64,000 nucleotides of DNA from Scatophagus argus (taxonomy: Eukaryota; Chordata; Actinopteri; Scatophagidae). Each line of letters opens with the position of its first letter. Within the stretch, counting starts at the first letter, position 1. The stretch is taken from contig NC_058498.1 in assembly GCF_020382885.2 (NCBI RefSeq), positions 20,613,001 to 20,677,000 of the forward strand, in the 5' to 3' direction. This document shows, in pieces, positions 795 through 31,345 of this stretch. The notes below the pieces were generated by a model. It saw nothing but the letters and a program-made list of their open reading frames with translations. It had not been told where the DNA came from and did not search any database. The position numbers and the translations under genes were made by a program.

Positions 795-1172
795 AATATA
801 GTGGCCCTTTGTCACTATCCGCGCACGCTGGTTGTTTAACTGGCTTGTACGCGTGCCAGTGTAGGTGCATGCAGGTGTAAATGCATAACACAGCCAATGT
901 CCAAACACTACTGATTGTACTCCAGGTTTATTAGGCTTCATACAGTCGACGCAAAAGTACTCACTTTAACCATAACAATTCAATCTGACCTGTGAAGTTA
1001 TACACCATGGCACGGTCAAAAACCGTGTGGATTCCCCAGCGTGCACCACTACGCTGATTAGCCCACCTCCCTTTATAGACTCAAACCATGGCCTAAAATA
1101 GATACTGCCACCCACTGGCAGAAATGCACACAACACTTGTGAACATAGAAAATAACCAATTTGGCTCCTACA
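795..1172 (-). mobile_element. BEL/Pao LTR (left copy, 3' LTR by orientation)
   Basis: A 378-bp segment matches 30968-31345 over its whole length with four single-base differences (about 1%). The right-hand copy sits directly upstream of a minus-strand BEL/Pao gag region, so both are read as LTRs of that family. On the minus strand it begins TGTAGGAGCC. The base pairs just outside the pair are AGGAA (left) and CGGAA (right), a four-of-five match that would suit a target-site duplication. The inner edge abuts unit A directly. Confidence 0.75.
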
Positions 1173-1249
1173 GTCAGCCTTTGACCAACTAGCTCAGAAG
1201 TTTGTTTTTGAGTGTCATGAATCTGGAAGAAGGCTTTGGGCGCAACATG

Positions 1250-1516
1250 TCAATTCCCACAGACAGTCAGTCCCACAAACACCTCAAATGTTTTGCAGAG
1301 CTGGGGTGGATAGTGCAGGTTCAGAGTATATTTCATCCCCAGAAGCAGGCAACATGCCCTGGCCAGATCGCCAAGATCAGTAAGAACTGGGACTCCCTCA
1401 ATGACGATTCCCACTGCATCTGGCTCATGGCAGACATATGTCTGCATGTTGTGCGTTTTCAAATGCTCGTGAACACTGTTCAGAAAAACAGAACAATAAG
1501 TGGCAACAGAGAACAA
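1250..1516 (-). pseudogene. SAMD3-like protein, C-terminal exon (unit A)
   Basis: The minus-strand translation contains DAVGIVIEGVPVLTDLGDL, then MKYTLNLHYPPQL and KTFEVFVGL. This arrangement (a 'VGIVIEG' strand, a 'LLGMKYTLNL' helix, 'YPPxLxxTFEVF') is what I associate with the C-terminal domain of the fish SAMD3-like family, which is often scattered among mobile elements. The frame ends in a stop after the conserved block. Compared with unit B, about 23 bp that include the likely splice acceptor are missing here; an alternative AG lies next to the join. Possible earlier exons lie at 2518-2608 and near 2808-2850. No SAM domain or start codon is present, so this is a 3' fragment at best. Assignment is from remembered family features. 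Confidence 0.4.
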
Positions 1517-1540
1517 TCGGCAAAAGTGTCAGGATAGGTC

Positions 1541-2060
1541 GGCGTCGCTGACGCAGAAATGAGCTGAACCCCGATGCAGAGTCAAATAGGCGCAGCCAGG
1601 CGAGGTGGAGGTCCAAAAACAATAGTCTTTATTTAGGATAACAAAACCTAACTCAAAAAACACACACTTACTGTGTCTTAGGATCTGTGAATATCTGTGG
1701 CTTAACTCCTGACAAAAACAGGGCAGGGCAGGGCAGGGCATGGCATTGCATGGCAAGGCAAGGCAAGGCAAAACTAACAATAGATCCTGGCTTGACCTGG
1801 GTGAAAAACGCAGACGCACAGACAAAGGTGACTGGGAAGACAAGGACTAAATAGACATGACAACGAGACACAGGTGACACACATCAGGAGGGAGAAAGCA
1901 ATCAGGAAAACTAAAAGCAAAGCTACATGAAAACAGGGCACACAGGGGAAGAGACACTTTCAAAATAAAACAGGACATGACAAAAACCTTGAACATAATA
2001 CATGGAAACACAAGACACACATGGAACATGACACATGGACTCAAAAATCAAAAACAAAGC
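1541..2060. repeat. interspersed repeat with GGCAGG/GGCAA tandem tract
   Basis: This stretch is rich in purine-heavy, transposon-like sequence that resembles a repeat common in fish genomes. I cannot name the family. It contains a 5-bp tandem tract (CAGGG grading into CAAGG) at about 1718-1770. Unit B keeps only a short stub of that tract near 14820, so it has expanded or contracted since duplication. Open frames across it on the minus strand are low-complexity shadows. Confidence 0.4.
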
Positions 2061-2517
2061 ATAACCAAAAACACCAGGCATGACAAAAAGCCTTCAATAA
2101 AATCACACATTAAAAGTTCACTATATTTTAATCGGTATGACATTAACCTACATATGCAATGCAGTATAATTAATTTAAACCATTATGTTACCACTTTTGA
2201 CGTTATGAAAATGATGACATACATTATGTTTTTAGTCCAATTTACACTGCTAGTATTACAGTTAATAGAAAACTGATTAGAAAGTCCTTCAGTATTTGAT
2301 TACCAGAGATAATATCCGATCAATAAAAATGACTTCACTTTGATTTGGCCATAGACTAAAGTGACTTTGTGGGGTGTGTGTCAGGCCGACTGCAGTTCTT
2401 GAGTATAATTTTTAAATCAGCTGCATCAAGTTTAAAAGTTTCAGAGCTCTACAATGTGCAGCCATCTCCTTAGAAATGAAGAGTGTAGCTTTTTGTCGCT
2501 TTTCAAACTATACTTAG

Positions 2518-2608
2518 GTAGCAGTCAGAGATGAGCTCTTGCCCACTCTCTTCCATGTATTCAATGAGGCATCTCAGCGTCACGTCTCTCTTCTTCACCA
2601 CAGAGATA
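2518..2608 (-). pseudogene. SAMD3-like internal exon (unit A)
   Basis: The minus strand reads SVVKKRDVTLRCLIEYMEES and then GQELISDCY after an AG acceptor at 2609-2610. The 'RxxVLRCLxxYLxE' pattern precedes the 'VGIVIEG' block in SAMD3-like proteins, so this exon and the one at 1250-1516 plausibly belong to one gene. The 3' side has no strong GT donor at the expected place, and a stop follows shortly. A further small exon candidate with AG and GTAAGC edges lies near 2808-2850. Expression is unproven. Confidence 0.3.
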
Positions 2609-3783
2609 CTTGGATCCAAGAGTTAATAAGTGAATAACAAAAAACTGAATCTTGCAGGCAATCTTAAAATTAATAAAGAGCTGTAAACAATGTTTTTGTT
2701 TTGCAATATTAACTCAATTAGGCAACACAATACAATAAAGTACTCATTGGATGAATATGCCCCTGCAATGTTGTTACCACTTTTGCCTCACCTTAAAAGC
2801 TTACCTACTCCATGAACTGCTCCTCCCAGTAGATCTGATGGTCTTCTGAAGAAGCAACACAAATGAAAGAAGAGTTTATTTATGAAAATATCAGAATAAT
2901 TAATGTTATTGCAAAGCAATCTTTTCACTTGAACAAATGGTTTCAAAGTATTTCAATAAATTTCAGACAAATATATCAACAGATTAAATTAAGCCATATG
3001 CAATTCATTTGCAACCAACAATTACTGAGAATATTTCATTTAATCATGTACTATATACTTAGTATGCAATGGTCATACTTTTTGTGTAGCAGTTACATTT
3101 AAACCAAGTCTCTGAAAAAGTATTTTTGATTAGCCCTTGTTTTTTGATGACACCGAGTAGACTGCACCTTGTAAAAATATTTCAGACCTCACTGCACATG
3201 TAAAAATATTAATAATTGTATGATAAAACAATGTTAAAGCAGACTAGATCCATGGACAACTACTTTGCTGAACTGTTGGTACAAGCCTGTCCAGTCCTAT
3301 CTTTCTACTTCTACTTTTTTACCCTCATTCAAAGAAAAAGCAGGAAGAGAACAAGACATACACACACATTTACACATTTTCATAATACCACGTTGCAGAG
3401 AGACAGAGACACCAGAAATATTTTATGTCCTCATCTTTTGCAATCATGCAGGGACGACAACAGTTACAAACCTAGCAGTTAACCTAACTTTTAACTGACT
3501 AGTGGACAAGGATGCGAGGCCATGCTACTAGGGTTTTGCTAGCTAATTTGGACAGAGGCAGAAAATTTAAGACAAGTGATTTGAGACAGAATAATTCACA
3601 TTCACTGAGGCTAACGTTATCTTGAAGTCAACTTCGAACAGCCCAAACATCTCTACTTTCACCGTCAGTGTAGTTGTTCCAGATTAATGTTAATGTTATA
3701 CCTTCGGTGTGGCCCCATGGCGCCCACAAAGTTGACAAACTTAACGTAAATTCAAAAAGAAAAGGGAATTAATTTACTGGATG

Positions 3784-3842
3784 AAATATACTTTTTAAAA
3801 TAAATTCCTATAGACTGCACCATTGAAGGACTTTTTACAGTG
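3784..3842. repeat. left arm of inverted repeat flanking the kinase (unit A)
   Basis: The reverse complement of this 59-bp block is found at 8647-8706 with a one-base indel. Similarity continues for roughly 25 bp more on the side away from the kinase. This arm ends in ...TTTTTACAGTG and the other begins CACTGTAAAAAG. The arms point away from the kinase, so they look like ends of elements lying outside it, not like terminal repeats of an element carrying the kinase. Confidence 0.75.
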
Positions 3843-5429
3843 TACTTATATATAGTAAGTAAGTCATATTTAATCTTAGTATGTTATTGTATGATCAAAG
3901 TGTTGCCCCATCCATGTAATACATATATGATGGTGAGTGTGGAAAACACAAAACAAAAGATATAAGTTAGCAACTTTTTACTGAGTGGTGCTTTCATGTA
4001 AATGCCAAAACAGTTGGGACACTGCAGGGAATCGAACCCCATCCCGCTAAAGCAGGAGTACCATTACCAGTGCCTTTTGTTTTTGTGGCTGAAATTTCAG
4101 CTAATCTGTTCTACAACGGAGGCATGGCGTGTAAACAGGGAGGAGTCAAACTTATTGTCCCATTAGTAACTGAGCTCACGGGCTCACTGAGCTTTCTTAG
4201 GTTTTGGGTTTTTTTTACTCTCTATTTTGTATTCGTCACATCTCTTGCTTTTGGTGTAACTGGACTGTTGAATGTTGCTGTGCAACTTTATGGTGTGACT
4301 GGGCCCTCATTCTGCCTCAGTAGCTGCTGGCTGCGTGTTGGGACCAACCACAGCATTTCTTTTATTGCAACTGAAGTATCGCAGGGAGACTTTTTGAAAT
4401 CAGAATTTTGTGTTTTACACTCAGCTGACAGTTACAACGGCACGTGAGTAAAGTTTGAAAACCACAGGTAACCAGCTAATGCCAAAGTTTTCTTTATTTG
4501 TTTGATTCAGAGTTAGCAAGCTTAATGAAATAGTAGGCTATTACTAAATACTTGAAATTAGCAAATTAATTCCTTTTTGCTTTTCATTTTTAGCTGTTTT
4601 TAATAGTAGTTCAGTATAGACATTTATGTATGTTTACATTTATCATGAATTCCCATCACTCATCATTAACAGATGATCAAGTCTATATGACTTTAGGTGT
4701 TGAAAGTTCAGTTGATGTATGAAGTAAGTATGAGTTCCTTAACTGATGATCTATTAAGTGGGAACTAATCATGTGGTGACTTTTGACTATAATAGTGAAC
4801 AACAGGAATTCATGATACTTGTTGCACTGGATCATCATCAGTCATGCATTATTCAGTACTACTGAGGTATATAATTTGTAGTCTAACCTTATTACAGCGA
4901 TAGCCCAGAAGCAATAAACAGTTAAAATGCTGTTACCGTCGCAGATCCAAAGTAAACAAAATCGCACCTGGGAAGCACGTGTCTCTGCACCTTATCGGAG
5001 ATCAGAGCTACAGCTTGACGCTCGTCTATGGCCTGGCACCCAGACTCTACATGGTGTGTGTTGCGTTAGCGAAAACATCCTCTGCACAGCAATAATAACA
5101 GTGCTCAAAGAATATCAGAGAAAAAAGAAATCGCCTTTTCACGCGCAGGGCAGTGATATAAGAATGGGCCGAATTATAATATCGCCAATAGCAACCTCTC
5201 TGCAAGCAACGGAAGTCGGTTCCATCTGACAGATGTCGGACAGAGAGCGTGTTTTACATTTTAACATTACTCTTCTTTAAAATAAATGAAAATATCTGTG
5301 CATGAATCGACCCCAGTTCCTTTCAGTCATGCATGAAATCCCCGTTGAGACGTGCAGTCGTGCTTAACGCGGCAAAAAGAGTTTATTGAAACTAAGTTAA
5401 AACTACAAATTAAAATTAGAACTACAACC
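3843..5429. other. kinase upstream region, non-coding
   Basis: No convincing gene. A 125-codon frame at 4070-4447 and a 100-codon frame at 4927-5229 are open in both units, but the units are 99% identical and the translations resemble nothing known. Two segments (about 3843-3875 and 4868-4917) recur downstream of the kinase at about 7787-7820 and 7852-7899, traces of an older duplication of the kinase locus. Near 4029-4041 the minus strand holds a pol III B-box match (GGTTCGATTCC) without a full tRNA fold. Confidence 0.5.
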
Positions 5430-5437
5430 TGACGTCA
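5430..5437. promoter_or_regulatory. perfect CRE palindrome upstream of kinase A
   Basis: TGACGTCA lies inside a 12-bp palindrome (CCTGACGTCAGG, 5428-5439), about 215 bp before the kinase ATG. This is the consensus site of CREB/ATF bZIP factors. Function is inferred. Confidence 0.35.
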
Positions 5438-5549
5438 GGGCTTCGGGGCTTTGATCTGTTGCGCTGCCACTTTTTTTTAAATCACTTGTCCTTTCTGCTT
5501 TGAAGATAAAAGCTCTTTGGGATCAAAGCGCTAGATGCGGTAAAAATAT

Positions 5550-5557
5550 TATAAATA
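5550..5557 (+). promoter_or_regulatory. TATA-like element of kinase A
   Basis: TATAAATA lies about 97 bp before the kinase start codon, a workable TATA distance for a transcript with a short leader. It is kept in unit B. No transcript evidence is available. Confidence 0.3.
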
Positions 5558-5653
5558 GAATAGCTCTTTGCCCGTTCGAATCTGTCCAAGACATACTTGG
5601 AGATAAAAATACCGTTTGTGTTGGATAGAACTGGAAGCATTTAACTTGAAGAA

Positions 5654-7282
5654 ATGGCCCACAACATAGATTTTAAACCAAAAGACATTCTGTACAATGA
5701 GTCAACCGAATACCAGATAAAGAAGTTCCTGGGACAGGGGATTTACGGAAAAGTGGCCAAATGCACAAAATTAAGCACTCGGGAAGTGATGGCCGTGAAG
5801 ATTATGCGGAGAGACTTGTCCTCCTATGGCAAAGAAGAGGTGGACATCCTCAAACAACTGAAAAGGCTTGAACCAGACAAACATAATTTGCTGAAGATAC
5901 TTGACAGTTTTAATTATATGGGACATGTTTGTATGGTATTTGAAATGTTGGACATAAGTCTTGAGGATCTGGTGATTATAACGTCCCCACTGCAATTGTC
6001 TGAGATCAGAGTAATGGCACAACAGATGTTAGTGGCTCTGAATGCCCTAAAGAGCATACCTATGGTACATGCAGACATCAAGCCAGACAACATAATGCTG
6101 GTTAACCATAAGATGCAGCCCTTCAAGTTGAAATTGATCGATTTTGGCATGGCAAAAAATGTTGCTGAAATAAGGAAAGGCAGCAAAATTCAAGCAATTG
6201 GTTACAGGGCCCCTGAGGTCATTTTGGGCCTCCCACTGGATGAGGCCATCGATATGTGGGGACTTGGCTGTGTTTTAGCGTGCCTGTACCTGGGCAAGCA
6301 CCTGTATCCACTATACTCTGAATATGACGTCATGAGTTTCATCATGCGGATGCACGGTCAGCCTGAAGATCACCTGCTAAATGCTGGAATTTATTCCAAG
6401 AATTATTTCATTAAGGACAAAAACTCCCCTGATTCTCCATGGAGATTCAAAACAGTAGCTGAATACAATCGTACAAAAGGTTGGGCGGAAACACCACGTG
6501 GCAGTGATTCTGACACGTTTAACAGCTTTGATGACTTGGCCAGACCAGAAGAGAAGACTACTAGTGAGTATGAAGACACACAGGCCTTTTTAAGCCTCCT
6601 CAGAAGCATGCTACATGTGGATCCTCAAAAGAGAATCAAGCCCAGTGAAGCCTTAGGTCACCATTTCATCACAATGAAACACCTTACTCGTGACACTAAT
6701 GACGACATGTATGTCGAATCGGCCTATCAGACCATTAAAAACTGCCAGTTGGAGACGTCATCTGTTGAATTCGAGCCATTTGTAACATCAAGCGACGAAA
6801 TTAGTTGGCATGGACCTTCCCCTAATAGTTCAGTCAGCTCAATTTCAACTAACAAAGTAACTGCTGAGGACACCGATAATGGACCACAATGCACGGCTGC
6901 TGAAAAAACGGACAGGGACACAGTTACAGATGACATGGACAAAACATCAAATCCTGAGGCTGATAAGAAACCACCTGGCACAAATGAGGCAGCTCCACCT
7001 GCCTCTCTATTAAGTGAGAGAGGCAAAACATCAAATCCTGAGGCTGATAAGAAACCACCTGGCACAAACGAGGCAGCTCCACCTGCATCTCTCTTAAGTG
7101 AGAGAGGCAAAACATCAAATCCTGAGGCTGATAAGAAACCACCTGGCACAAACGAGGCAGCTCCAGAAACAGGCTTTGTTGAAGTCAGGTCCCGAAGGAA
7201 GTGGTTCAAGAGGATCCGCAAATTCTTCACCAGAATGTTCAAATCTTTTGATTGCTGCACAGAGACCACTGTTCAACTGTAA
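5654..7282 (+). CDS. HIPK-like Ser/Thr protein kinase, copy A (catalytically complete)
   Basis: A 542-residue, single-exon kinase of the DYRK/HIPK group. The glycine loop is at 27-34 (GQGIYGKV), the ATP lysine is K49 and the helix-C glutamate is about E62. The catalytic loop HADIKPDN has D141, DFG begins at D163, and the segment IGYRAPEVILGLPLDEAIDMW (about 182-202) matches the HIPK activation and substrate region, as does the HIPK-type end DPQKRIKPSEAL near 323-334. HIPKs phosphorylate transcription factors and co-repressors; here the homeodomain-interaction and PEST regions of HIPK1-3 are absent. The tail has three copies of a 28-residue repeat from residue 430, then a basic, aromatic end (RSRRKWFKRIRKFF) and a CC pair that could bind membrane. 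The start is chosen for its good context (G at -3 and +4). The stop overlaps a GTAAGT donor-like site. It probably belongs to a fish-specific HIPK-like expansion. Confidence 0.93.
   Translation: MAHNIDFKPKDILYNESTEYQIKKFLGQGIYGKVAKCTKLSTREVMAVKIMRRDLSSYGKEEVDILKQLKRLEPDKHNLLKILDSFNYMGHVCMVFEMLDISLEDLVIITSPLQLSEIRVMAQQMLVALNALKSIPMVHADIKPDNIMLVNHKMQPFKLKLIDFGMAKNVAEIRKGSKIQAIGYRAPEVILGLPLDEAIDMWGLGCVLACLYLGKHLYPLYSEYDVMSFIMRMHGQPEDHLLNAGIYSKNYFIKDKNSPDSPWRFKTVAEYNRTKGWAETPRGSDSDTFNSFDDLARPEEKTTSEYEDTQAFLSLLRSMLHVDPQKRIKPSEALGHHFITMKHLTRDTNDDMYVESAYQTIKNCQLETSSVEFEPFVTSSDEISWHGPSPNSSVSSISTNKVTAEDTDNGPQCTAAEKTDRDTVTDDMDKTSNPEADKKPPGTNEAAPPASLLSERGKTSNPEADKKPPGTNEAAPPASLLSERGKTSNPEADKKPPGTNEAAPETGFVEVRSRRKWFKRIRKFFTRMFKSFDCCTETTVQL
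6941..7165 (+). repeat. 84-bp in-frame tandem repeat in kinase A tail
   Basis: Two full copies of an 84-bp unit and a third partial copy encode residues 430-504. The protein unit starts KTSNPEADKKPPGTNEAAP and continues PASLLSERG. The copies are nearly identical to each other in DNA and identical between units A and B, so the array was made recently, before the segmental duplication. It is Pro/Lys/Glu-rich and likely disordered. Confidence 0.9.
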
Positions 7283-7381
7283 GTATCACAATGGTAAGTA
7301 GTTGAATCCCAGTCTGGACCCTTCTGTCCTTCCTCTTCTTCTTCTTCTTCTTCAGTTTGCATGTTCTCCCTGTCTCCGGTT
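7283..7381 (+). repeat. partial SINE-like segment after kinase A stop
   Basis: From about 7301 (TTGAATCCCAGTCTGGACCC) this stretch matches part of the SINE-like repeat at 8338-8646, including the CTT tract. It joins directly to the minisatellite, which appears to have grown from the next part of the same repeat. Confidence 0.6.
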
Positions 7382-7740
7382 GGGTTTTCTCCGGGTGCTC
7401 CGGTTTCCTCCCACGATTCCCCCCCCCAAAAAAAGTCAATTACTATGTGATGTTGTATTTCATTGTCTGGGTTTTCTCCGGGTGCTCCGGTTTCCTCCCA
7501 CGATCCCCCCCCCCCCCCCCCAAAAAAAGTCAATTACTATGTGATGTTGTATTTCATTGTCTGGGTTTTCTCCGGGTGCTCCGGTTTCCTCCCACGATCC
7601 CCCCCCCCCCAAAAAAAAGTCAATTACTATGTGATGTTGTATTTCATTGTCTGGGTTTTCTCCGGGTGCTCCGGTTTCCTCCCATTTCCTCCCACAATCC
7701 AAAAAAACAATAGTCAATTACTATGTGATGTTGTATTTCT
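7382..7740. repeat. minisatellite with C-run/A-run units (unit A)
   Basis: Four units of roughly 90-100 bp. Each begins GGGTTTTCTCCGGGTGCTCC and ends near GATGTTGTATTTC. The first three contain a C homopolymer (up to about 16) followed by an A run; the last has a shorter join. The GGGTTTTCTCCGG part is the body of the SINE-like repeat at 8338-8646. Homopolymer lengths differ between units A and B. Long proline-rich frames across it are artefacts. Confidence 0.88.
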
Positions 7741-7904
7741 TTGCTAATTTTCCTTGTGTTTTTATGTTTGTGAAGAGTTTAGACTTTATTACTTATATAT
7801 AGTAAATAAGTCAAATTTAATCTTTTATTTTCCTTCCTTTTATTAATTCCTATAATTCGTAGTCTAACCTTATTACAGCGATAGCCCAGAAGCAATAAAA
7901 TAGT

Positions 7905-8028
7905 TGAAGAAGAAACAGGCTTTGGTGAAGTCAGGTCCCAAAGGAAGTTGTTCAACAGGATCTGCAAATTCTTCACCAGAATGTCCAAATCTTTTGATTG
8001 CTGCACAGAGACCACTGTTAAACTGTAA
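7905..8028 (+). pseudogene. kinase C-terminal tail fragment (unit A)
   Basis: The translation reads EETGFGEVRSQRKLFNRICK and onward to a stop, aligning with the last 40 or so residues of the kinase at 5654-7282 but with several substitutions. It is preceded by diverged copies of sequence that lies upstream of the intact kinase, so it is what remains of an older tandem kinase copy after an internal deletion. It lacks the whole kinase domain. Its end keeps the CTGTAAGTA stop/donor overlap. Confidence 0.8.
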
Positions 8029-8337
8029 GTAACAGGTCATAAATCCCTCGCTCTCCATGTTAGCATAGAGGCCTATGGTGGCTCCATCACCCAACTTCAA
8101 CTATACACGATCAGATTCCAAATTACATCATCAGCGAATGATAGCAGCACTACTGTCCGGGATATTTCTGCTCCCCATTTGTCCAATGGGAAGAAGCGGA
8201 GACGTACTTCATCTTTACATACACTGATCAGTTACAACATTAAAATCACTGAAAGGTGATGTGAATAACGTTAATCCTATCTTTACGATGCAATGTTCTG
8301 CGGGGAAACCTTGGCTTGCAGTAATCACGTGGATGGG

Positions 8338-8646
8338 TGTGGCATGGTGATGCAATGGTTTGCACTGTTGCCTCATAGCCAGAGGGTTCCAGGTTTGAAT
8401 CCCAGTCTGGACCCTTCTGTCCTTCCTCTTCTTCTTCTTCTTCTTCTTCTTCTTCAGTTTGCATGTTCTCCCTGTACCTGTCTGGGTTTTCTCCGGGTGC
8501 TCCGGTTTCCTCCCACAATCCAAAAAACATGTACATTAGGTTAATTGGCTATTCTACATTGCCCCTAGGTGCGAGTGTGTGAGTGTGTGAGTGTGTGGTT
8601 GTCTGGTCTTGTGTGTCAGCCCTGCGACTGACTGGCGATCAGTCCA
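8338..8646 (+). repeat. tRNA-derived SINE-like repeat (unit A)
   Basis: The head GTGATGCAATGGTTTGCACTG resembles a tRNA A-box region, and GGTTTGAATCC fits a pol III B box. A CTT microsatellite follows, then a body containing GGGTTTTCTCCGGGTGCTCC and TTAGGTTAATTGG, and a GTGTGAGTGTGTGAG tract. This layout is common as an interspersed repeat in percomorph fish. I cannot give its database name. Confidence 0.6.
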
Positions 8647-8732
8647 CACTGTAAAAAGTCCTTCAATGGTGCAGTCTATAGGAATTTATTTTAAAAAAGT
8701 ATATTTCTTCCAATAAATTAATTAATTAATTT
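8647..8732. repeat. right arm of inverted repeat flanking the kinase (unit A)
   Basis: It begins CACTGTAAAAAGTCCTTC and is the reverse complement of 3784-3842, with an additional AATTAATT stretch. See the left arm for interpretation. Confidence 0.75.
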
Positions 8733-9596
8733 CCTTTTTTAAATTTATTTAAGTTACACATGAGTAAAAAGTGTGAATGTTTTGGTAACTTATTATTATC
8801 CATCATAAAATTGATTTTACTGAACTTCACAATAAATTGCTTCCACAAAATGCTTCATTTCCAGCTTTAGCCAGTTCCCCTTGAGGTATGTCCCTATGCC
8901 ACAAAAATTATTCATCATTATAAGATTTGGGATCATTTCTCAGAGCATCTATTCAAAAAATCACTGACGTTTCATCAGTACTGACATTTCAATATGCCGG
9001 TTGTCCTGGGGGCGCCGACACCATTGCTAGTCAATACTTTGCTGCATTCTCTGTTGCATGTGGAAGTGGGAAACTTCAAACATTAAAATGTGGCTGCTGA
9101 ACTGCACAATCAGGCATAATTTGTTGCTCTTCTGCTGCGATTGGTGAAAAGATTGGTTTAACATGGCTCACTAAAAGGAACCTTATCAATGGCATCCATT
9201 TTTTCAGTGCCCATAATGTGAATATGCTGTATAGAAAGTGTGGGGTCATACTTCTCACAGTACCTATGTTGCCTGAAGGCAACGTGACAGAGGAAGGTCC
9301 TCAGCCTTCTTTGTTATGCTGTCACTCATGATTGAACGGCCCTCTAAGCAGATGCCACGCCCCCCACGTCAGATCAGGGCAAAAAGTTTGAAACTGAAAA
9401 GATGAGACCTGAAAGTGAACAAAAGATCTGAAAGCAAAAAAATAAATAAATAAATAAATAAATTCTGAAACCCGAAAAGATTTGAAAGATTTGGTATTTT
9501 TGCGTTTTAAGTTCAAAATCAAAATTTCAACTTTCAAGTTCAAATCTTTTTTTCAAATGAATGAAACTTTTGCACCTGATTTGGCTCCATACCTCT
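8733..9596. other. non-coding stretch
   Basis: AT-rich sequence with an AAATA tandem tract near 9440-9462 (replaced by a plain A run in unit B near 23822). I see no gene. Confidence 0.4.
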
Positions 9597-9860
9597 GACA
9601 CATGCAGACAAGCCATCAAGCCAGACAACATAATGCTAGTTAACCATAAGATTCAGCCCTTCAAGCTGAGACTTGTGGTTCATACAGTTTCCGAAATGAG
9701 GCAAGGCAACAAATTCAAAGACCAAGACTCCCCTGGTGCTCCATGGAGGATCAGTACAATACAGTCTCTATGACATACTTAAGATCTGCCCAAAAGAAAA
9801 GGATGCCACTGAGTGCAAGGACAAACAAGCCTTTTTAAGCCTCCTCAGACGCATATTAGT
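9597..9860 (+). pseudogene. kinase middle fragment, decayed (unit A)
   Basis: Short translated blocks match the intact kinase in order: IKPDNIMLVNHKIQPFKLRL (catalytic loop onward), then QDSPGAPWR (against NSPDSPWR), then DKQAFLSLLRRI (against DTQAFLSLLRSM). The DFG and activation segment between the first two blocks is missing and the blocks are not in one frame. This is a third, older and dead kinase copy within the unit. Confidence 0.82.
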
Positions 9861-12800
9861 TTTACGCATGCTTCATTGTATTTCCCTCACTATCAATATA
9901 ATACTCTACCATTTTCTCCCCAAGGAAACTCCTACAGGTAAACAGCATGTGTCTCTGAACTCGCTTCCCCAGGAGCTTCATGTGCTCCCACACAATCCCT
10001 CTCTGATCCATAGAGAAAGCACAGTACAGGGAAACATTTGGTCCAGGTAGACACTTACTTACAGTTACAGCCAACTCATAAGCTGCAATGAAATGGGGAG
10101 ATACATGATGAGTTAAACAATTTTAAACTTAAGTTCAGACTAACTGTAATGATGATGAGGTGAGGGGTAAATGGACATACTGGCCGGGTGTTCTCAGTCA
10201 GCTTAATGGTCTCAGCTCCACCCATAGTGAGGACCTGTGAGAGACAGTACACAGCCTCCTGTTTGCTGCCCTGCCCTGACAGGGTGGTGCTCTCTTTCTC
10301 CCCTGGGAGACAAAGGAAAACTTGACAGTGTCAGTCACATTTTTGAATAGATGTGAAGAAATATAGAATGGCAGTTTTAATAAAATATCTTTTTTTTTTT
10401 GCTAACTTTTTGAAACCGCTTCCTTGGCTTGATGAAAATGCATTTTGTTACCAAATTGACAGAGAAACTTTGCTCAAAAAGAAGCCAGCATAAAGATGGA
10501 GAACATATTGAGCAGAGATTATCAGGGTTACACTGGATGTCTGCGACTCTAGATGTCTGACAGAAAAGCTCTTATTTACTTGTATTGTTCCTCTGGGATT
10601 TTACGGATGAGTTATTTTTGACTTTCTTAATCCCATTAAGAAAGAATAACAGTAAAGTGAGATAAAAACCAAAGTGAAACATTTTTAGAATGACCCTCAA
10701 CCAAAATAAATCATTTTAAGGCAACAATAAAAGAAGCAACAAGGAAAAAAACAAAAAACAAAACCAGGCATGAATGACTCACCACCTCCCATTGTCCCTT
10801 CTGTTGTGTGCTTTGTGATAAAGAATATCCAGCCAGAATGAAAAAAAAAATACTTAGAGTGACAAGAATAAATCAAAATATCTCTATGATTTAGTGTAGT
10901 GCAACACAAATACCAGTAATGCTTCATTTCTTAAAATCTTCCTTTTTGGAGTCCAGTTGTGATTTTGTTTCAGCATGGTTCATTTCTGTGCTTTTATTTG
11001 AACTTTTATTGAACTACATTATCATGAAAGGAGGATATTTTGTCCACCTCATTTAAGCAGATTTAGTTTAAACGTAAATATCAGGACCACCCAATTGAAC
11101 TGAACATCCCCGAGAGATCTGTAGAGGTCATGACAGCTTTGACTATATTCAATGAGACAAAGCAAAGCAAAGTGTGGCAATGTACTGTATCTCTAAGGCA
11201 GCCTCACACTGCAGCCCATCTAACTGTTTCTTACTCATGATGTGCGTGAACTCTGTGCAGATGCACAATGAACAAAAGCTTGTGCAAGATAATATGCTTT
11301 CTATACCTTTGCGGTCTGACTTATGCAGGGCATTCTATTTTGCACCACGTATGACAAGAAGGAAGAAAATCAGTTAGTTGTTAGAGTTATAGAGCTCAAA
11401 ACAAGTACAGTTGGAGAAACCTTTGCTCCTGTATTTCTTTGCAGCAAAATACAAGCTCACAGGTCAACTCTACACGTCCTTAAGGGAGTTCATTCTTTTT
11501 ATAAGACTGAACTCTGACTGGGTCTCACTGGTGATACTTTTGCAGAGGGTAGCAGTTTTCATGCAATTTGCTTTCTTATGCTGGAGAGCTGTTGTATAAA
11601 TTCTAATCTCATGGCTAACAAGGGCCTTGTCACCTCTCCCTGCCATAGCATATTGGGAACTGACACCACAGATTCCCTTAAAACCAGATTTTCCTATGAT
11701 TTTGCCAGGCTGACTGTTGCATAATTTAAATGACACGGGATGATCTTGTGTTAGTTCTTTGTGCTCATACTTGTCTCTGCACACTGACTTGGGCTGCTCA
11801 TTATAGCAGCCCCCCCAGGTCCTCATAGATAAAGAAATGTGGTCACTGATAGAGCCAAGACTTAAAACATTATCAGAAATGAGTACATTTGATTTTATTT
11901 CAAATCTGCTGCTTACAAAAAAAAGTGAGACAAATGATTGAATGAAATTGTCAGAGCCCAAGACAATAAAAGCTAGGAAAGCTGTAAATAAAATGCTTGG
12001 TGGTGCTTTCAGTTGACTCAAATAATAACAAAGATATAATGCCTATGATATGCGTGTATATTTATTTTTATAGTGATGTACTTCATGTAAATTACCAAAA
12101 TGTATATTTTTTTTAATGGTGAGTCATGTAGTTCCCCATGTCATCTATCCTGACAGATAATGGTTATGGGTCTCTATAAGAAATGGCATCATTTAAATCC
12201 AGAGCCTAAAATAGCAATAACAAATAAATAATACGCTGTACAAATAATACACTACTTGGCATCAATTCGATTTTTTTTCAGCTCAGTCTTGAAGACTCAA
12301 GAGAGTGTGACATCTATATTTAAGTGCATTTGAATTCTTTGACAAACTGAGGTAAGGTCTGATTTGAAACATTTAAAACATTTTGGAAAATAGCAGGATG
12401 GATATTAGGTAGAACCAATACATAAAAACATATGCTTAATATATTGACATTATTTATTATATTTCCTAAACACTTGACAGTCATAGTTACTTGAAATTAT
12501 GTCAGTGATATGATTTTTCTGAATTTAAAGTATCTTGTTAAGGAGTTAGTAGCACCCCTAACAATTAACAACAGTTAATATACAGTATATAATATTATAA
12601 CTCATAAAAGAGACTATTTATAAATATGTAATATTTGTTCAGTCTTTGGAGTATTTTCTGTAAATTACAAAGCTTGTCTTTTTAATATTATTAGTAAGTT
12701 TGCTCAGCTAACCATTTCAAAGTTTACATCATCTCTGTATTAGCATTTTGTATTAGTGTACAAAAGTCTTGTATCAGTGAACAGAGAAAATACAAATACA

Positions 12801-16924: not shown

Positions 16925-16941
16925 TACTTATATATAGTAAG

Positions 16942-19821: not shown

Positions 19822-19829
19822 TGACGTCA
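19822..19829. promoter_or_regulatory. perfect CRE palindrome upstream of kinase B
   Basis: TGACGTCA is retained at the same place as in unit A. A TATA-like TATAAATA also lies about 97 bp before the ATG. Conservation here only reflects recent duplication. Confidence 0.33.
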
Positions 19830-21674: not shown

Positions 21675-21770
21675 GTATCACAATGGTAAGTAGTTGAATC
21701 CCAGTCTGGACCCTTCTGTCCTTCCTCTTCTTCTTCTTCTTCAGTTTGCATGTTCTCCCTGTCTCCGGTT

Positions 21771-22131
21771 GGGTTTTCTCCGGGTGCTCCGGTTTCCTCC
21801 CACGATCTCCCCCCAAAAAAAAGTCAATTACTATGTGATGTTGTATTTCATTGTCTGGGTTTTCTCCGGGTGCTCCGGTTTCCTCCCACGATCCCCCCCC
21901 CCCCCCCCCCAAAAAAAAGTCAATTACTATGTGATGTTGTATTTCATTGTCTGGGTTTTCTCCGGGTGCTCCGGTTTCCTCCCACGATCCCCCCCCCCCC
22001 CAAAAAAAGTCAATTACTATGTGATGTTGTATTTCATTGTCTGGGTTTTCTCCGGGTGCTCCGGTTTCCTCCCATTTCCTCCCACAATCCAAAAAAAACA
22101 ATAGTCAATTACTATGTGATGTTGTATTTCT
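21771..22131. repeat. minisatellite with C-run/A-run units (unit B)
   Basis: Counterpart of 7382-7740, again four units. The C runs differ in length (one reaches about 20). Confidence 0.88.
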
Positions 22132-22295
22132 TTGCTAATTTTCCTTGTGTTTTTATGTTTGTGAAGAGTTTAGACTTTATTACTTATATATAGTAAATAA
22201 GTCAAATTTAATCTTTTATTTTCCTTCCTTTTATTAATTCCTATAATTCGTAGTCTAACCTTATTACAGCGATAGCCCAGAAGCAATAAAATAGT

Positions 22296-22419
22296 TGAAG
22301 AAGAAACAGGCTTTGGTGAAGTCAGGTCCCAAAGGAAGTTGTTCAACAGGATCTGCAAATTCTTCACCAGAATGTCCAAATCTTTTGATTGCTGCACAGA
22401 GACCACTGTTAAACTGTAA
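22296..22419 (+). pseudogene. kinase C-terminal tail fragment (unit B)
   Basis: Counterpart of 7905-8028 and essentially identical to it. An AATAAA just upstream is shared with unit A and could serve as a distal poly(A) signal for the intact kinase. Confidence 0.8.
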
Positions 22420-22728
22420 GTAACAGGTCATAAATCCCTCGCTCTCCATGTTAGCATAGAGGCCTATGGTGGCTCCATCACCCAACTTCAACTATACACG
22501 ATCAGATTCCAAATTACATCATCAGCGAATGATAGCAGCACTACTGTCCGGGATATTTCTGCTCCCCATTTGTCCAATGGGAAGAAGCGGAGACGTACTT
22601 CATCTTTACATACACTGATCAGTTACAACATTAAAATCACTGAAAGGTGATGTGAATAACGTTAATCCTATCTTTACGATGCAATGTTCTGCGGGGAAAC
22701 CTTGGCTTGCAGTAATCACGTGGATGGG

Positions 22729-23031
22729 TGTGGCATGGTGATGCAATGGTTTGCACTGTTGCCTCATAGCCAGAGGGTTCCAGGTTTGAATCCCAGTCTG
22801 GACCCTTCTGTCCTTCCTCTTCTTCTTCTTCTTCTTCTTCAGTTTGCATGTTCTCCCTGTACCTGTCTGGGTTTTCTCCGGGTGCTCCGGTTTCCTCCCA
22901 CAATCCAAAAAACATGTACATTAGGTTAATTGGCTATTCTACATTGCCCCTAGGTGTGAGTGTGTGAGTGTGTGAGTGTGTGGTTGTCTGGTCTTGCGTG
23001 TCAGCCCTGCGACTGACTGGCGATCAGTCCA
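22729..23031 (+). repeat. tRNA-derived SINE-like repeat (unit B)
   Basis: Counterpart of 8338-8646 with a shorter CTT tract. Confidence 0.6.
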
Positions 23032-23116
23032 CACTGTAAAAAGTCCTTCAATGGTGCAGTCTATAGGAATTTATTTTAAAAAAGTATATTTCTTCCAATA
23101 AATTAATTAATTAATT
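23032..23116. repeat. right arm of inverted repeat flanking the kinase (unit B)
   Basis: Counterpart of 8647-8732, beginning CACTGTAAAAAG. Confidence 0.7.
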
Positions 23117-23975
23117 CCCTTTTTTTAAATTTATTTAAGTTACACATGAGTAAAAAGTGTGAATGTTTTGGTAACTTATTATTATCCATCATAAAATTAA
23201 TTTTACTGAACTTCACTATAAATTGCTTCCACAAAATGCTTCATTTCCAGCTTTAGCCAGTTCCCCTTGAGGTATGTCCCTATGCTACAAAAATTATTCA
23301 TCATTATAAGATTTGGGATAATTTCTCAGAGCATCTATTCAAAAAATCACTGACGTTTCATCAGTACTGACATTTCAATATGCCAGTTGTCCTGGGGGCG
23401 CCGACACCATTGCTAGTCAATACTTTGCTGCATTCTCTGTTGCACGTGGAAGTGGGAAACTTCAAACATTAAAATGTGGCTGCTGAACTGCACAATCAGG
23501 CATAATTTGTTGCTCTTCTGCTGCGATTGGTGAAAAGATTGGTTTAACATGGCTCACTAAAAGGAACCTTATCAATGGCATCCATTTTTTCAGTGCCCAT
23601 AATGTGAATATGCTGTATAGAAAGTGTGGGGTCATACTTCTCACAGTACCTATGTTGCCTGAAGGCAACGTGACAGAGGAAGGTCCTCAGCCTTCTTTGT
23701 TATGCTGTCACTCATGATTGAACGGCCCTCTAAGCAGATGCCACGCCCCCCACGTCAGATCAGGGCAAAAAGTTTGAAACTGAAAAGATGAGACCTGAAA
23801 GTGAACAAAAGATCTGAAAGCAAAAAAAAAAAAAAAATAAATTCTGAAACCCGAAAAGATTTGAAAGATTTGGTATTTTTGCGTTTTAAGTTCAAAATCA
23901 AAATTTCAACTTTCAAGTTCAAATCTTTTTTTCAAATGAATGAAACTTTTGCACCTGATTTGGCTCCATACCTCT

Positions 23976-24239
23976 GACACATGCAGACAAGCCATCAAGC
24001 CAGACAACATAATGCTAGTTAACCATAAGATTCAGCCCTTCAAGCTGAGACTTGTGGTTCATACAGTTTCCGAAATGAGGCAAGGCAACAAATTCAAAGA
24101 CCAAGACTCCCCTGGTGCTCCATGGAGGATCAGTACAATACAGTCTCTATGACATACTTAAGATCTGCCCAAAAGAAAAGGATGCCACTGAGTGCAAGGA
24201 CAAACAAGCCTTTTTAAGCCTCCTCAGACGCATATTAGT
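23976..24239 (+). pseudogene. kinase middle fragment, decayed (unit B)
   Basis: Counterpart of 9597-9860, with the same scrambled kinase blocks. Confidence 0.82.
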
Positions 24240-27200
24240 TTTACGCATGCTTCATTGTATTTCCCTCACTATCAATATAATACTCTACCATTTTCTCCCC
24301 AAGGAAACTCCTACAGGTAAACAGCATGTGTCTCTGAACTCGCTTCCCCAGGAGCTTCATGTGCTCCCACACAATCCCTCTCTGATCCATAGAGAAAGGA
24401 CCAACATTTGGTCCAGGTAGACACTTACTTACAGTTACAGCCAACTCATAAGCTGCAATGAAATGGGGAGATACATGATGAGTTAAACAATTTTAAACTT
24501 AAGTTCAGACTAACTGTAATGATGATGAGGTGAGGGGTAAATGGACATACTGGCCGGGTGTTCTCAGTCAGCTTAATGGTCTCAGCTCCACCCATAGTGA
24601 GGACCTGTGAGAGACAGTACACAGCCTCCTGTTTGCTGCCCTGCCCTGACAGGGTGGTGCTCTCTTTCTCCCCTGGGAGACAAAGGAAAACTTGACAGTG
24701 TCAGTCACATTTTTGAATAGATGTGAAGAAATATAGAATGGCAGTTTTAATAAAATATCTTTTTTTTTTGCTAACTTTTTGAAACCGCTTCCTTGGCTTG
24801 ATGAAAATGCATTTTGTTACCAAATTGACAGAGAAACTTTGCTCAAAAAGAAGCCAGCATAGAGATGGAGAACATATTGAGCAGAGATTATCAGGGTTAC
24901 ACTGGATGTCTGCGACTCTAGATGTCTGACAGAAAAGCTCTTATTTACTTGTATTGTTCCTCTGGGATTTTACGGATGAGTTATTTTTGACTTTCTTAAT
25001 CCCATTAAGAAAGAATAACAGTAAAGTGAGATAAAAACCAAAGTGAAACATTTTTAGAATGACCCTCAACCAAAATAAATCATTTTAAGGCAACAATAAA
25101 AGAAGCAACAAGGAAAAAAACAAAAAACAAAACCAGGCATGAATGACTCACCACCTCCCATTGTCCCTTCTGTTGTGTGCTTTGTGATAAAGAATATCCA
25201 GCCAGAATGAAAAAAAAATACTTAGAGTGACAAGAATAAATCAAAATATCTCTATGATTTAGTGTAGTGCAACACAAATACCAGTAATGCTTCATTTCTT
25301 AAAATCTTCCTTTTTGGAGTCCAGTTGTGATTTTGTTTCAACATGGTTCATTTCCGTGCTTTTATTTGAACTTTTATTGAACTACATTATCATGAAAGGA
25401 GGATATTTTGTCCACCTCATTTAAGCAGATTTAGTTTAAACATAAATATCAGGACCACCCAATTGAACTGAACATCCCCGAGAGATCTGTAGAGGTCATG
25501 ACAGCTTTGACTATATTCAATGAGACAAAGCAAAGCAAAGTGTGGCAATGTACTGTATCTCTAAGGCAGCCTCACACTGCAGCCCATCTAACTGTTTCTT
25601 ACTCATGATGTGCGTGAACTCTGTGCAGATGCACAATGAACAAAAGCTTGTGCAAGATAATATGCTTTCTATACCTTTGCGGTCTGACTTATGCAGGGCA
25701 TTCTATTTTGCACCACGTATGACAAGAAGGAAGAAAATCAGTTAGTTGTTAGAGTTATAGAGCTCAAAACAAGTACAGTTGGAGAAACCTTTGCTCCTGT
25801 ATTTCTTTGCAGCAAAATACAAGCTCACAGGTCCACTCTACACGTCCTTAAGGGAGTTCATTCTTTTTATAAGACTGAACTCTGACTGGGTCTCACTGGT
25901 GATACTTTTGCAGAGGGTAGCAGTTTTCATGCAATTTGCTTTCTTATGCTGGAGAGCTGTTGTATAAATTCTAATCTCATGGTTAACAAGGGCCTTGTCA
26001 CCTCTCCCTGCCATAGCATATTGGGAACTGACACCACAGATTCCCTTAAAACCAGATTTTCCTATGATTTTGCCAGGCTGACTGTTGCATAATTTAAATG
26101 ACACGGGATGATCTTGTGTTAGTTCTTTGTGCTCATACTTGTCTCTGCACACTGACTTGGGCTGCTCATTATAGCAGCCCCCCCCAGGTCCTCATAGATA
26201 AAGAAATGTGGTCACTGATAGAGCCAAGACTTAAAACATTATCAGAAATGAGTACATTTGATTTTATTTCAAATCTGCTGCTTACAAAAAAAAGTGAGAC
26301 AAATGATTGAATGAAATTGTCAGAGCCCAAGACAATAAAAGCTAGGAAAGCTGTAAATAAAATGCTTGGTGGTGCTTTCAGTTGACTCAAATAATAACAA
26401 AGATATAATGCCTATGATATGCGTGTATATTTATTTTTATAGTGATGTACTTCATGTAAATTACCAAAATGTATATTTTTTTTAATGGTGAGTCATGTAG
26501 TTCCCCATGTCATCTATCCTGACAGATAATGGTTATGGGTCTCTATAAGAAATGGCATCATTTAAATCCAGAGCCTAAAATAGCAATAACAAATAAATAA
26601 TACGCTGTACAAATAATACACTACTTGGCATCAATTCGATTTTTTTTTCAGCTCAGTCTTGAAGACTCAAGAGAGTGTGACATCTATATTTAAGTGCATT
26701 TGAATTCTTTGACAAACTGAGGTAAGGTCTGATTTGAAACATTTAAAACATTTTGGAAAATAGCAGGATGGATATTAGGTAGAACCAATACATAAAAACA
26801 TATGCTTATTTATTATATTTCCTAAACACTTGACAGTCATAGTTACTTGAAATTATGTCAGTGATATGATTTTTCTGAATTTAAAGTATCTTGTTAAGGA
26901 GTTAGTAGCACCCCTAACAATTAACAACAGTTAATATACAGTATATAATATTATAACTCATAAAAGAGACTATTTATAAATATGTAATATTTGTTCAGTC
27001 TTTGGAGTATTTTCTGTAAATTACAAAGCTTGTCTTTTTAATATTATTAGTAAGTTTGCTCAGCTAACCATTTCAAAGTTTACATCATCTCTGTATTAGC
27101 ATTTTGTATTAGTGTACAAAAGTCTTGTATCAGTGAACAGAGAAAATACAAATACAAATCATAGGCAGGTAGTTTAGATAAATTTACCAGTAACAGACCC

Positions 27201-27334
27201 TTGTGGCACACACTGGGGCCTTTCTGTGATCTTCATTTGCTACAAATTGTTCATACATCCATAGCAGCACTCTGAAGCATCTCATATGGCACTCCACTTA
27301 GTGGTTCCTGTATACTGCATGTAAGAGTTACCCT

Positions 27335-28295
27335 TTAAGTGCCAGGATATAACTGCTTATCCAGCAGATTTGACATTTCCATCCAGGATAAATCCCACTG
27401 CACTTCCGTTGCATCCTGCTTGGTTGCAGGAAGCTCCATGGCCGGCAGGGCTTCTTTGGAAACTGGCCAGCAACTACGAGTGCAAAACATCTGGTACCTT
27501 GACACAAATATGATCATAAGTTAGGCATTTGTGCAGCAGTGTGTACACAGGTCATTAGACAGATACAACACAAGATGTAGCGACTAACCTGTAGTGACGA
27601 ACTAACCAAACAGTGAGAGGAATGAAGAACAGAAGTACCAGACCGCATGAAAGGATGATCCATTTCCAAGAGCCTGATGAAGAGAACAAATAATATTTAT
27701 ATGAATGTGTCAGCAACAAAGATGTACCAAACAGTGCACCTCCACTACACTACATGATGTCGTCTAATTTCTCATTAATAGTTGCAGTCACACCAGGAAA
27801 CCCTTTGGATACGGCATACGGTGATCTGATTCACCAGATGCTGATGTCTTATCGCTACAAAACACACTAGAGTTGAAAACACAACTGATATTTTGCTTTT
27901 ATTCTTGTAAGAAAATGTAAATACATAATCAAAATTACCCCTTTAAATTTAATTTCTGTTCCGCATGATAAACCTCAAATATTCATCTTCCCATACAAGT
28001 GAAAACATTTTCAGCTTAAACAACATGAGGCATATTACAAATGCAGGACAAAAATTAATAAATGGTTTCAGTACATAAATATGTTAATAATAATGACATA
28101 TGACAATAATGACTTATTAGAAGGTAGAACTCTTTGCTTCATGCAGTCATTATTATTGTGCTTACTGTCACTATCATTCTTATTGTTACTTATTAACTCC
28201 CCAACCTAGTCAGTAGATGTGTTAAGAATCTGAAATAATTTTACCATGAGTGGGATCTGCTGTTCCATCTGTTGATGTGAAGGTGCCATGTTGTT
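27335..28295 (-). pseudogene. possible type I membrane receptor, 3' exons only (unit B)
   Basis: Counterpart of 12979-13939, with exons at 28245-28295 (stalk), 27589-27673 (transmembrane) and 27335-27473 (tail, TAA). The retroelement begins at 28609, so the 5' exons are missing here too. Confidence 0.33.
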
Positions 28296-28608
28296 CTCAA
28301 TTTAACTGCCCACCAAGCAAGAGTTGTGAAGCAAAGAAAACAAAAAAACATATTACATTATACATTATACTCTTAAAACATGTGACATTAAAATAAAATA
28401 CAGGGACTCCTGACCACAGCATTTGGCACCAAAGAACTTCAACTTATTAAGTGCACAGTACAGTACACCTTAGTGTGGATTAAAACATTTACCATAAAAC
28501 GGTTTATGTACTTGAACTTCTGACATGCGGCCTTAACAATTAAACATTCATCTCACTCATTCATTAAGCTCTGAAAAACACAACAAAAGGGCCATTTATG
28601 AGTGTGAG

Positions 28609-30967
28609 GTCAGTATAGGCACCACTGCTTCCACTCAGTGGACCATTAACTACCCATCCCAACACAGTTTTAATAGCGTACGGGCCATTCCCGTGGCTGT
28701 TGATGACCTCCCATGGTTCCAGCAATTTGGGAGCGTTGGTTCCTATCAACAAATCAACATTTGCCTTTATGTGTGGGATGTGAACGTCCGACAAGTAAGA
28801 CCATTTATCCAGTTCCTCAGTTGTTACTATATTATTAGTGGTGACTGGCATTTTCCGTTGGCTCAAGACCTCTGGGAGACTATAAAAGTCATTGCCCTCT
28901 AATCCAGCCACCTCCAAACCAGTGATGGAATAAGATGGAACAACAGTCTCCTGGCCCATTGTGTTCAACAAAACACTGGTTCTTCTGCCTGTAATATTCA
29001 GCCTCTGCATTAGATCTTCGGAGCAGAACGTGGCCGAGCTACCAGGGTCCAGAAATGCATATGTTTGTATAATGTCACATCCTTTCACAGACTTCACTCT
29101 TACAGGAAGAATTGGGAGAACACAGCCATCCTTACCGGCCCCTGTATGCCCACATGTTTGGAAAGAAGCTGATTGTTTACCGAGTGGGCCCTTTAGCTGT
29201 TGTGAAGCTGGTTGTTTCTTTTGCTCTGGAGCAGGTGGTTGACTACTGATGTGCAGCACAGTGGGATGAGTTTGACCACAGACTTTGCATGTCAAGCGCC
29301 TCTCGCATTCCCGACTCATGTGACCATCACATAAGCATGCAAAGCAAACTCCCTTTTCCTTCAGAAGTTGAATTTTCTCCTTGTGTCTTTTCTCATTAAA
29401 CGGTTTACACTCCTCCAATGTGTGACTGTATGAACAGCAAAGGCATCCTGCTTTAACTGACTTTCCAAGCTCTGCTGGTGGCTCCTCCCCCCTTTCTGAT
29501 GAGGTCGTATGTTACAGTGGTGGCAACAATATTTCCTTTCACCCTGTTTCCAGGATAAGACTTAAACCGGGTGATCTTGGATGTCACCGAACAGAGGATC
29601 AGAAAGAATTTTAACATGACGCTCCACAAATACAACCAAGTCAGTAAAGCGAGCTCTCTGCTGTGTCTGTTCCATGATTCCATAAGCAATGGATCTCCAT
29701 TGCTCCCTCAACTTGTATGGCAGCTTTGCAAGAATGGCTCTCATATTTGCAGGCATATCCAACTTTTGCATATACTCCAATTCCTCCATTACATTACAAC
29801 AGCCACGCAAAAACAAAGAATATGCTTGGAGTGCTTTAACATCTTCACCCTTTATGGACTGCCAGGCTAGAACCTTTTCCATATAAGCATTAGCAATTTT
29901 ATATTGATTTCCAAAATGCTCCTGCAGCAGGTCCTTAGCCACTGCATAGCCGCGATCAGGAGCCAAGTGCTGGCAGCTACGTACCAGTTGTTGTGGCTGT
30001 CCTCTGGTAAATTGCTCCAGATAGAAAAGACAATCTGCTCCTTCTGCTTTATTCTCCACTCCTTGCTCGAATGCTTTTATGAATGCTCTGTATTGCAAAG
30101 GGTTCCCTTCGAATATAGGAATGTCTCTCGGCGGCAGAGATCTTGCAGTTTGCTGTTGCACCAAAGCAGCTGTTATTTCATTTTGTCTGTGCATGACGGT
30201 AAGTATGTCCTCAGATGCAATTTGATTTATGCAAGGATGAGTGAGTTGATGAGTGATTTGGGGTTGACGGATTTCCTTGTTTAATTGAGAAGTTGTCATT
30301 TGACCTTTAAGTTGGTGTGAATTTCCCATGCTTTTCTGGCGGTCATGCATATCGTAGTGATGTTCAGAATCCGTTTTAAAACTTGAGCCACGTTCCTTTG
30401 ATCGCACATCCTTTGTTCAGCTTTGCCTTTCGTTCCGCTTGCAACCTTAAAAGCTTATCAGCAAGCGCCTTTTCAGTCATTATAACTTTTCGTCCGCTTC
30501 CGGTTTCCATGTTTTCAGTCGCTCCACAGTTCGCAACAACCATCAAAGTTAACACAAAGTCAATCACGTATTCAATTAGGCCACCAATGCATTGGATTTA
30601 TGCCCCTTAATTGTGTGCACACAGGTCCAATGGCCATTATTGTAGCGCTACTCATACCTCGGCATCAGTGAGCTGGGCGCTATGCGGTGATCAGCTGATC
30701 TGATGCTCCGCTGCCTCGCCTGGCTCCGGTCTCCGCCGATCCGCTGCGGCCGTTCCTCCAACTACCGCCGAATTCCGTCGGAATCGCTGCGGCCCTCCGT
30801 AGCCGAACTCCACCTCACGCCAAGACCCAGCAGCAACAGCAGCTCCTTTCGATCGTCCTCCCACGATCACCTCCTCCCGGCGCCATGCGGGACGGGCCGC
30901 TTTCCAGACACAGCGAAGGCCGATTGTTGCTTTCCCAACGAGTCCGATGGGAACCAGGTTTTTGACT
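28609..30967 (-). mobile_element. BEL/Pao retroelement fossil, gag-protease part
   Basis: A broken BEL/Pao-type LTR element on the minus strand. Recognisable parts in order: a GC-rich leader next to the right LTR with a plausible tRNA primer site (TGGTTCCCATC), a Pao-type gag region around 29560-30530, a CCHC zinc-knuckle stretch and an aspartic-protease domain with a D-P-G-S active-site motif down to 28609. No reverse transcriptase or integrase part is seen; where it would follow, unit B begins. A few breaks are present in what remains. LTR divergence of about 1% suggests a young insertion. Confidence 0.85.
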
Positions 30968-31345
30968 AATATAGTGGCCCTTTGTCACTATCCGCGCACG
31001 CTGGTTGTTTAACTGGCTTGTACGCGTGCCAGTGTAGGTGCATGCAGGTGTAAATGCATAACACAGCCAATGTCCAAACACTACTGATTGTACTCCAGGT
31101 TTATTAGGCTTCATACAGTCGACGCAAAAGTACTCACCTTAACCATAACAATTCAATCTGACCTGTGAAGTTATACACCATGGCACGGTCAAAAACCGTG
31201 TGGATTCCCCAGCGTGCACCACTACGCTGATTAACCCACCTCCCTTTATAGACTCAAACCATGGCCTAAAATAGATACTGCCACCTACTGGCAGAAATGC
31301 ATACAACACTTGTGAACATAGAAAATAACCAATTTGGCTCCTACA
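30968..31345 (-). mobile_element. BEL/Pao LTR (right copy, 5' LTR by orientation)
   Basis: This 378-bp segment is the partner of 795-1172 (four differences). On the minus strand it runs TGTAGGAGCC ... CCACTATATT and leads into the gag leader. It is the right-hand border of the amplicon block; host DNA toward GTPBP6 begins at 31346. Confidence 0.8.

Follow-up and report, generated by a model that had tools for sequence, protein, structure and literature searches.

We analyzed a 64,000-nt stretch of the Scatophagus argus genome (assembly GCF_020382885.2, contig NC_058498.1, positions 20,613,001 to 20,677,000; hereafter the window), in which two nearly identical long terminal repeats (LTRs) enclose two tandem units of about 13 kb, each with an open reading frame (ORF) for a HIPK-like protein kinase, followed by the gag-protease part of a BEL/Pao-like retrotransposon on the minus strand (Table 1). 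The initial annotation of this locus had recognized the LTR pair, the tandem, the gag-protease part and non-viral DNA in the place of the polymerase; the first three are borne out below, and so is the lack of a polymerase domain in the sequence scanned. It did not mention three copies of the word GTCAG, a TATAG at the border of the remnant, an insertion in unit B, a change in the kinase of copy B and the mascRNA-like RNAs carried by both units. From the sequences at the joints, we discuss how the tandem units may have come to lie between the LTRs.

Table 1. Features of the locus in window coordinates; X and Y denote the two element insertions proposed in the text
Feature	Position	Strand	Basis
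AGGAA left of the LTR pair, putative target-site duplication of resident element X	792..796		4/5 bases identical to 31346-31350
Left LTR (+ strand TATAG...CTACA), putative hybrid of X and Y	797..1172	-	four mismatches to right LTR; alternative start 790
GTCAG abutting the left LTR, putative target-site duplication of element Y	1173..1177		sequence at joint
Tandem unit A, 13,080 bp	1173..14252	+	self-comparison, alignment
Copy A of the HIPK-like kinase, single unbroken ORF of 542 amino acids, HAD intact	5654..7282	+	ORF, Pfam, structure matches
GTCAG between units A and B, putative unoccupied target of Y in array	14253..14257		sequence at joint
Tandem unit B, 14,356 bp including hAT-like insertion	14253..28608	+	self-comparison, alignment
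HIPK-like kinase copy B, 542 amino acids, HAD to HAN (D141N), P144L	20046..21674	+	Pfam, A/B comparison
GTCAG after unit B, proposed second half of Y duplication	28609..28613		sequence at joint
TATAG, the first five LTR bases, at junction with gag-protease remnant	28614..28618		sequence at joint
BEL/Pao-like protease and gag ORF pieces, two frames	28614..30416	-	ORF list, Pfam; protease ORF reaches 28564, inside unit B
Possible primer-binding site, 13 nt inside right LTR	30939..30956	-	sequence only
Right LTR, 5′ LTR of the remnant	30970..31345	-	alignment with left LTR
CGGAA right of the LTR pair, putative target-site duplication of X	31346..31350		4/5 bases identical to 792-796
hAT-like DNA transposon, unit B only, ends TAGGGGTGTGACGAGA	16942..18243	-	terminal repeats, target duplication, A/B alignment
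mascRNA-menRNA-like RNA, unit A, 59.3 bits	4018..4074	-	RF01684, cut-off 42.5
mascRNA-menRNA-like RNA, unit B, 52.5 bits	18410..18466	-	RF01684, cut-off 42.5

Units A and B differ by 88 substitutions in 12,998 aligned columns (0.68%) and by 19 indels, the largest of which is 1,310 bp in B. The divergence is unevenly distributed, with 76/8934 substitutions (0.85%) in the part ending at window position 10172 and 12/4064 (0.30%) in the remainder (P = 1e-4), and the positions of the substitutions are patchy (Kolmogorov-Smirnov P = 3e-5). Such a pattern is compatible with exchange between units in an array. The less diverged 4-kb ends correspond to 10173-14252 in A and 24543-28608 in B, and the longest substitution-free stretch, of about 1,530 bp, ends at 13145 in A. 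In a six-frame Pfam search of unit A, the kinase alone exceeded its cut-off (U1snRNP70_N, E = 0.073, scored 14.1 bits against a cut-off of 23). The region around the A/B junction (13200-15300) contains nine direct and four inverted repeat families of 12-23 bases, none of which was informative, and a tRNA scan of the window with bacterial settings yielded none.

Residues 11-370 of kinase copy A matched HIPK3 (E = 1.4e-78) and HIPK2 (E = 2.9e-78) among the best 60 of 1715 solved-structure matches, and HIPK2 and HIPK3 were also the best matches of copy B among solved structures. The likeness to HIPK kinases extends over the whole kinase domain, but the domain here lies in an uninterrupted ORF with 28-amino-acid repeats, and copy B lacks the catalytic Asp. 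The catalytic loop of copy A is HAD, the same as in HIPK2. The substitutions in copy B fall at 20466 and 20476, corresponding to 6074 and 6084 of copy A; because HAN replaces HAD at the catalytic loop and P144L lies beside it, copy B is predicted to be inactive. The repeats, two full and one partial, occupy the C-terminal part of both kinases (6940-7165 and 21332-21557).

Between the two kinase ORFs, 19 of the 21 substitutions are non-synonymous (non-synonymous divergence, dN, 0.0150; synonymous divergence, dS, 0.0058), an excess that is not significant within the ORF (P = 0.147). Divergence is higher in the ORF than elsewhere in the unit (P = 0.001), and the non-synonymous changes exceed the number expected at the rest-of-unit rate (19 against 7.5, P = 3e-4). 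These values are suggestive of selection on the kinase. The kinase had no match in the viral contig collection, an absence that says little given the viral and prokaryotic scope of the collections, and of two literature listings on an intronless HIPK expansion in fish, the 15 of 97 matches shown in one did not contain the kinase's name and the 12 of 16 shown in the other had no title on the subject.

In the remnant, the gag ORF matched DUF1759 (PF03564; E = 7.8e-9, 36.1 bits, cut-off 25.4), a domain linked with the gag of BEL/Pao elements, and the protease ORF was aspartic-protease-like at a score under the Pfam cut-off (E = 3e-4, 21.8 bits, cut-off 24.3). The two ORFs lie in different frames and are separated by 50 bp (29512-29561), which may reflect decay or a programmed frameshift. 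No pol domain was detected in the six-frame Pfam search of unit A, which represents unit B through its 99.3% identity, or in the two ORF pieces of 28614-30969. The element has the DUF1759 gag, the aspartic-protease-like ORF and the LTRs in common with BEL/Pao LTR retrotransposons, but differs from them in that pol (reverse transcriptase, RNase H and integrase) was not found after the protease. Because pol was not found, the usual reverse-transcriptase family test is impossible, and we refer to the element as a BEL/Pao-like remnant only. We take 30939-30956 to be its possible primer-binding site. For the protease ORF, two pattern matches in viral contigs and 15 in genome contigs were obtained and none was confirmed, a weak absence in collections that are viral and prokaryotic.

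Self-comparison of the window aligned 795-1172 with 30968-31345 over 378 bases with four mismatches, at positions 965, 1061, 1113 and 1129 of the left copy. The leading AA of this alignment may be outside the LTR. The divergence of the LTRs is then 4/376, with a 95% interval of 0.29-2.7%. Both LTRs and units had initially been put at about 1% divergence, a value that is too high for the units, whose divergence is also uneven.

At the left joint, 1172|1173, the edge of the left LTR and the start of the unit homology coincide to the base. The A/B junction reads GAG|GTCAGCC, and the end of unit B reads GAG, then GTCAG, then TATAGGCACC, the start of the protease-gag remnant. Hence, three corresponding GTCAG words can be read directly: one at the LTR edge, one uninterrupted in the middle of the tandem, and one before the LTR-end-like TATAG. 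Inspection by eye revealed no polypurine tract beside the left LTR edge; because of this, and because the unit homology starts exactly there, 1172|1173 resembles the outer border of an integration rather than the inner border of a 3′ LTR.

The unit starts at 1173 and 14253 are homologous, so GTCAG counts as a single coincidence. Using the window's own words, the chance that the five bases after unit B match the first five of the unit is 0.0014; the frequency of TATAG in the window is 0.0007. At the outer flanks, whose words had been noted initially, AGGAA and CGGAA agree at 4/5 bases (chance of at least 4/5, 0.019 with the same words). The base-exact meeting of LTR edge and unit edge strengthens these figures. 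These flanks had been regarded as suiting one insertion event, a view that overlooks the inner GTCAG words. The outer pair (4/5) and the inner pair (5/5) differ from each other and are nested, and their status as target duplications hangs on where the LTR ends. Other homology between the outer flanks consisted of low-complexity matches and an inverted 11-position match with one mismatch, which was equalled in 0.138 of shuffles and was not used.

With a probability that we place slightly above even, two BEL/Pao-like insertions were fused here by LTR-LTR recombination, which would have moved a piece of the kinase tandem into a resident element. Two nested and differing word pairs are what the recombination of two separate insertions would leave. 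Element X would have been resident at this site, bounded by AGGAA and CGGAA, and element Y would have entered, at GTCAG, an array in which the 13-kb kinase unit was already tandemly repeated. The absence of the far LTR and pol of Y could be explained by deletion between two TATAG words or by a truncated integration ending at TATAG. Two units together with Y would have left the array, most simply as a looped-out circle, and a single crossover between the LTR of Y on the circle and an LTR of X would have completed the move; a linear array as the donor would need two crossings. The product would read X flank, hybrid LTR, GTCAG-unit, GTCAG-unit, GTCAG, Y remnant, hybrid LTR, X flank, in which the A/B junction would be ordinary array sequence, the unoccupied target of Y. 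If the site of Y set the phase of a pre-existing array in this way, the coincidence of LTR edge and unit edge needs no further cause. We infer from the joints that the words are target duplications, that a circle was involved, that a donor array lay elsewhere and that the events followed this order.

Under this fusion model, the tandem would predate both the insertion of Y and the move, and the LTR divergence would not be an insertion age because the LTRs stem from two insertions. The proposal that element insertion, segment gain and duplication were close in time therefore does not follow, and the interval on the LTR divergence spans 0.29-2.7%. Of the two readings offered by the initial annotation, recombination between two element copies is the better one in that the outer and inner words differ, conditional on the LTR end; capture of a host segment followed by its duplication is not favored (see below).

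Several points weigh against the fusion model. The left LTR could instead span 790-1172, starting with TGA at 790 (TGACTAATATAG...CTACA). With this boundary, the LTR ends are TG...CA and the gap to the possible primer-binding site is 6 nt, whereas the favored boundary gives TG...TA ends and a gap of 13 nt, both of which are unusual. GTCA flanks 790-1172 on both sides (786-789 and 1173-1176; word frequency 0.0043), and the seven bases before TATAG, TGAGGAA at the left LTR and TGACTAA at the right one, are alike at 5/7 positions (chance of at least five, 0.017). In addition, the outer words AGGAA and CGGAA contain one mismatch, and GTCAG alone could be explained as junction microhomology. No further copies of the LTR, the unit or the element are in view. 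As for re-integration of a circle, the yeast GAP1 study only suggests it, and reports that no GAP1 circle was found under selection (PMC6298651).

The strongest rival, which we nevertheless regard as unlikely, draws on the same observations. In this scenario, a native 13-kb segment was simply duplicated in tandem between GTCAG words, with 5-bp microhomology, beside a truncated BEL-like element, and the left LTR is a solo LTR starting at 790 with the 4-bp duplication GTCA. The two GTCA words, the TG...CA ends, the shorter gap to the primer-binding site and the 5/7 agreement of TGAGGAA and TGACTAA all fit, and microhomology accounts for GTCAG. However, a solo LTR exactly at the duplication edge would be a coincidence, and TATAG after GTCAG and the agreement of AGGAA with CGGAA would be further ones. 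Moreover, the seven bases that this boundary adds to the LTR differ at 2/7 positions between the two copies, compared with 4/376 in the remainder.

An assembly switch is less probable again. X could be a plain LTR copy at this site and Y could belong to a circle or to a kinase array at another locus, the assembler having joined the two at the near-identical LTR; the observed order would fit a mis-resolved 376-bp repeat with two entries and two exits, and as the window contains no N, its joints are unmarked by gaps. On the other hand, a 13-kb tandem of 99.3% identity was kept apart, suggesting long reads able to cross 376 bp. We consider it improbable that a host segment took the place of pol in one element and was later duplicated. 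The LTR pair and the outer words are compatible with a single insertion, but pol and the purine tract would have been lost exactly to the LTR edge, the duplication would have to end at both borders, and TATAG after GTCAG is left unexplained. Retrotransposition of a 30-kb read-through RNA, which would start in Y, cross two units and reach another LTR, would account for both word sets, with AGGAA/CGGAA as its target duplication, and a possible primer-binding site is present; we rank this very low, mainly on the lack of a polypurine tract by eye beside the left LTR, and its length would be several times that of a normal element. The least probable is a false duplication of two haplotypes placed in tandem, as 0.68% is within usual heterozygosity but the junction falls exactly on GTCAG, a word too short to have been taken as an overlap by an assembler, and keeps the phase given by the LTR edge.

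If the two insertions were indeed fused through their LTRs, a one-step move of a tandem gene array by LTR homology would leave a readable footprint, and a single sequence would suffice to read it since the empty, filled and resident targets all survive. It would also follow that LTRs on both sides of a segment do not have to belong to a single element, and that LTR divergence need not date an insertion. Precedents exist for some steps of the proposed mechanism. KIT translocations in cattle reportedly arose through a circular intermediate. Circle-borne duplication was inferred in human with three candidate cases (PMC7188851). The present locus resembles the human and cattle cases in that a duplicated block would have reached a new site via a circular intermediate, but here the proposed joint is LTR homology, the load is a two-unit tandem and the donor is inferred. 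In yeast, LTRs serve as recombination sites yielding circles or extra host-gene copies: published work describes Ty circles that fit an origin by recombination within the genome (PMC4751563) and GAP1 tandem copies formed via recombination between flanking LTRs (PMC6298651). Here the elements and the host are different, and, as an additional step, part of an array would have entered an LTR already present at the site. No report of this locus was found among the literature matches listed, which is no proof of absence as subscription journals are mostly outside the coverage. As a tentative extension, for which we would claim only a low probability, array circles tagged by the same element might dock at scattered copies via LTR homology, seeding a diverging kinase cluster at new sites, each of which would show target duplications nested in one another.

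The 1,310-bp insertion in unit B is a DNA transposon that we presume to be hAT-like from its terminal repeats and 8-bp duplication. The duplication, ATAGTAAG, is perfect (16934-16941 and 18244-18251), unit A keeps the empty site, and an ORF of the element matched zf-BED at 20.8 bits (cut-off 20.6). Because the element is present in B alone, its insertion is younger than the A/B split.

The mascRNA-like RNAs fold weakly, with z scores of -1.31 and -0.87 and with 20/200 and 37/200 shuffles doing as well. They have the tRNA-like mascRNA match in common with MALAT1-like RNAs, but the upstream U-rich tracts that form the MALAT1 triple helix are absent at the unit A copy, where no run of at least four T was found in the 300 nt upstream. 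According to PMC10869381, jawed fish have one MALAT1-like gene; the same source refers to a study in which dozens of anole lizard transcripts, and some fish, were found to carry MALAT1-like elements. An A-rich stretch directly precedes the mascRNA-like RNA in unit A.

In the right flank of the window, ORFs passed the cut-off of zf-HC5HC2H and narrowly missed those of PHD and EPL1; these are presumably JADE-like. A further TBCC match in this flank lies in an ORF that we take to be RP2-like.

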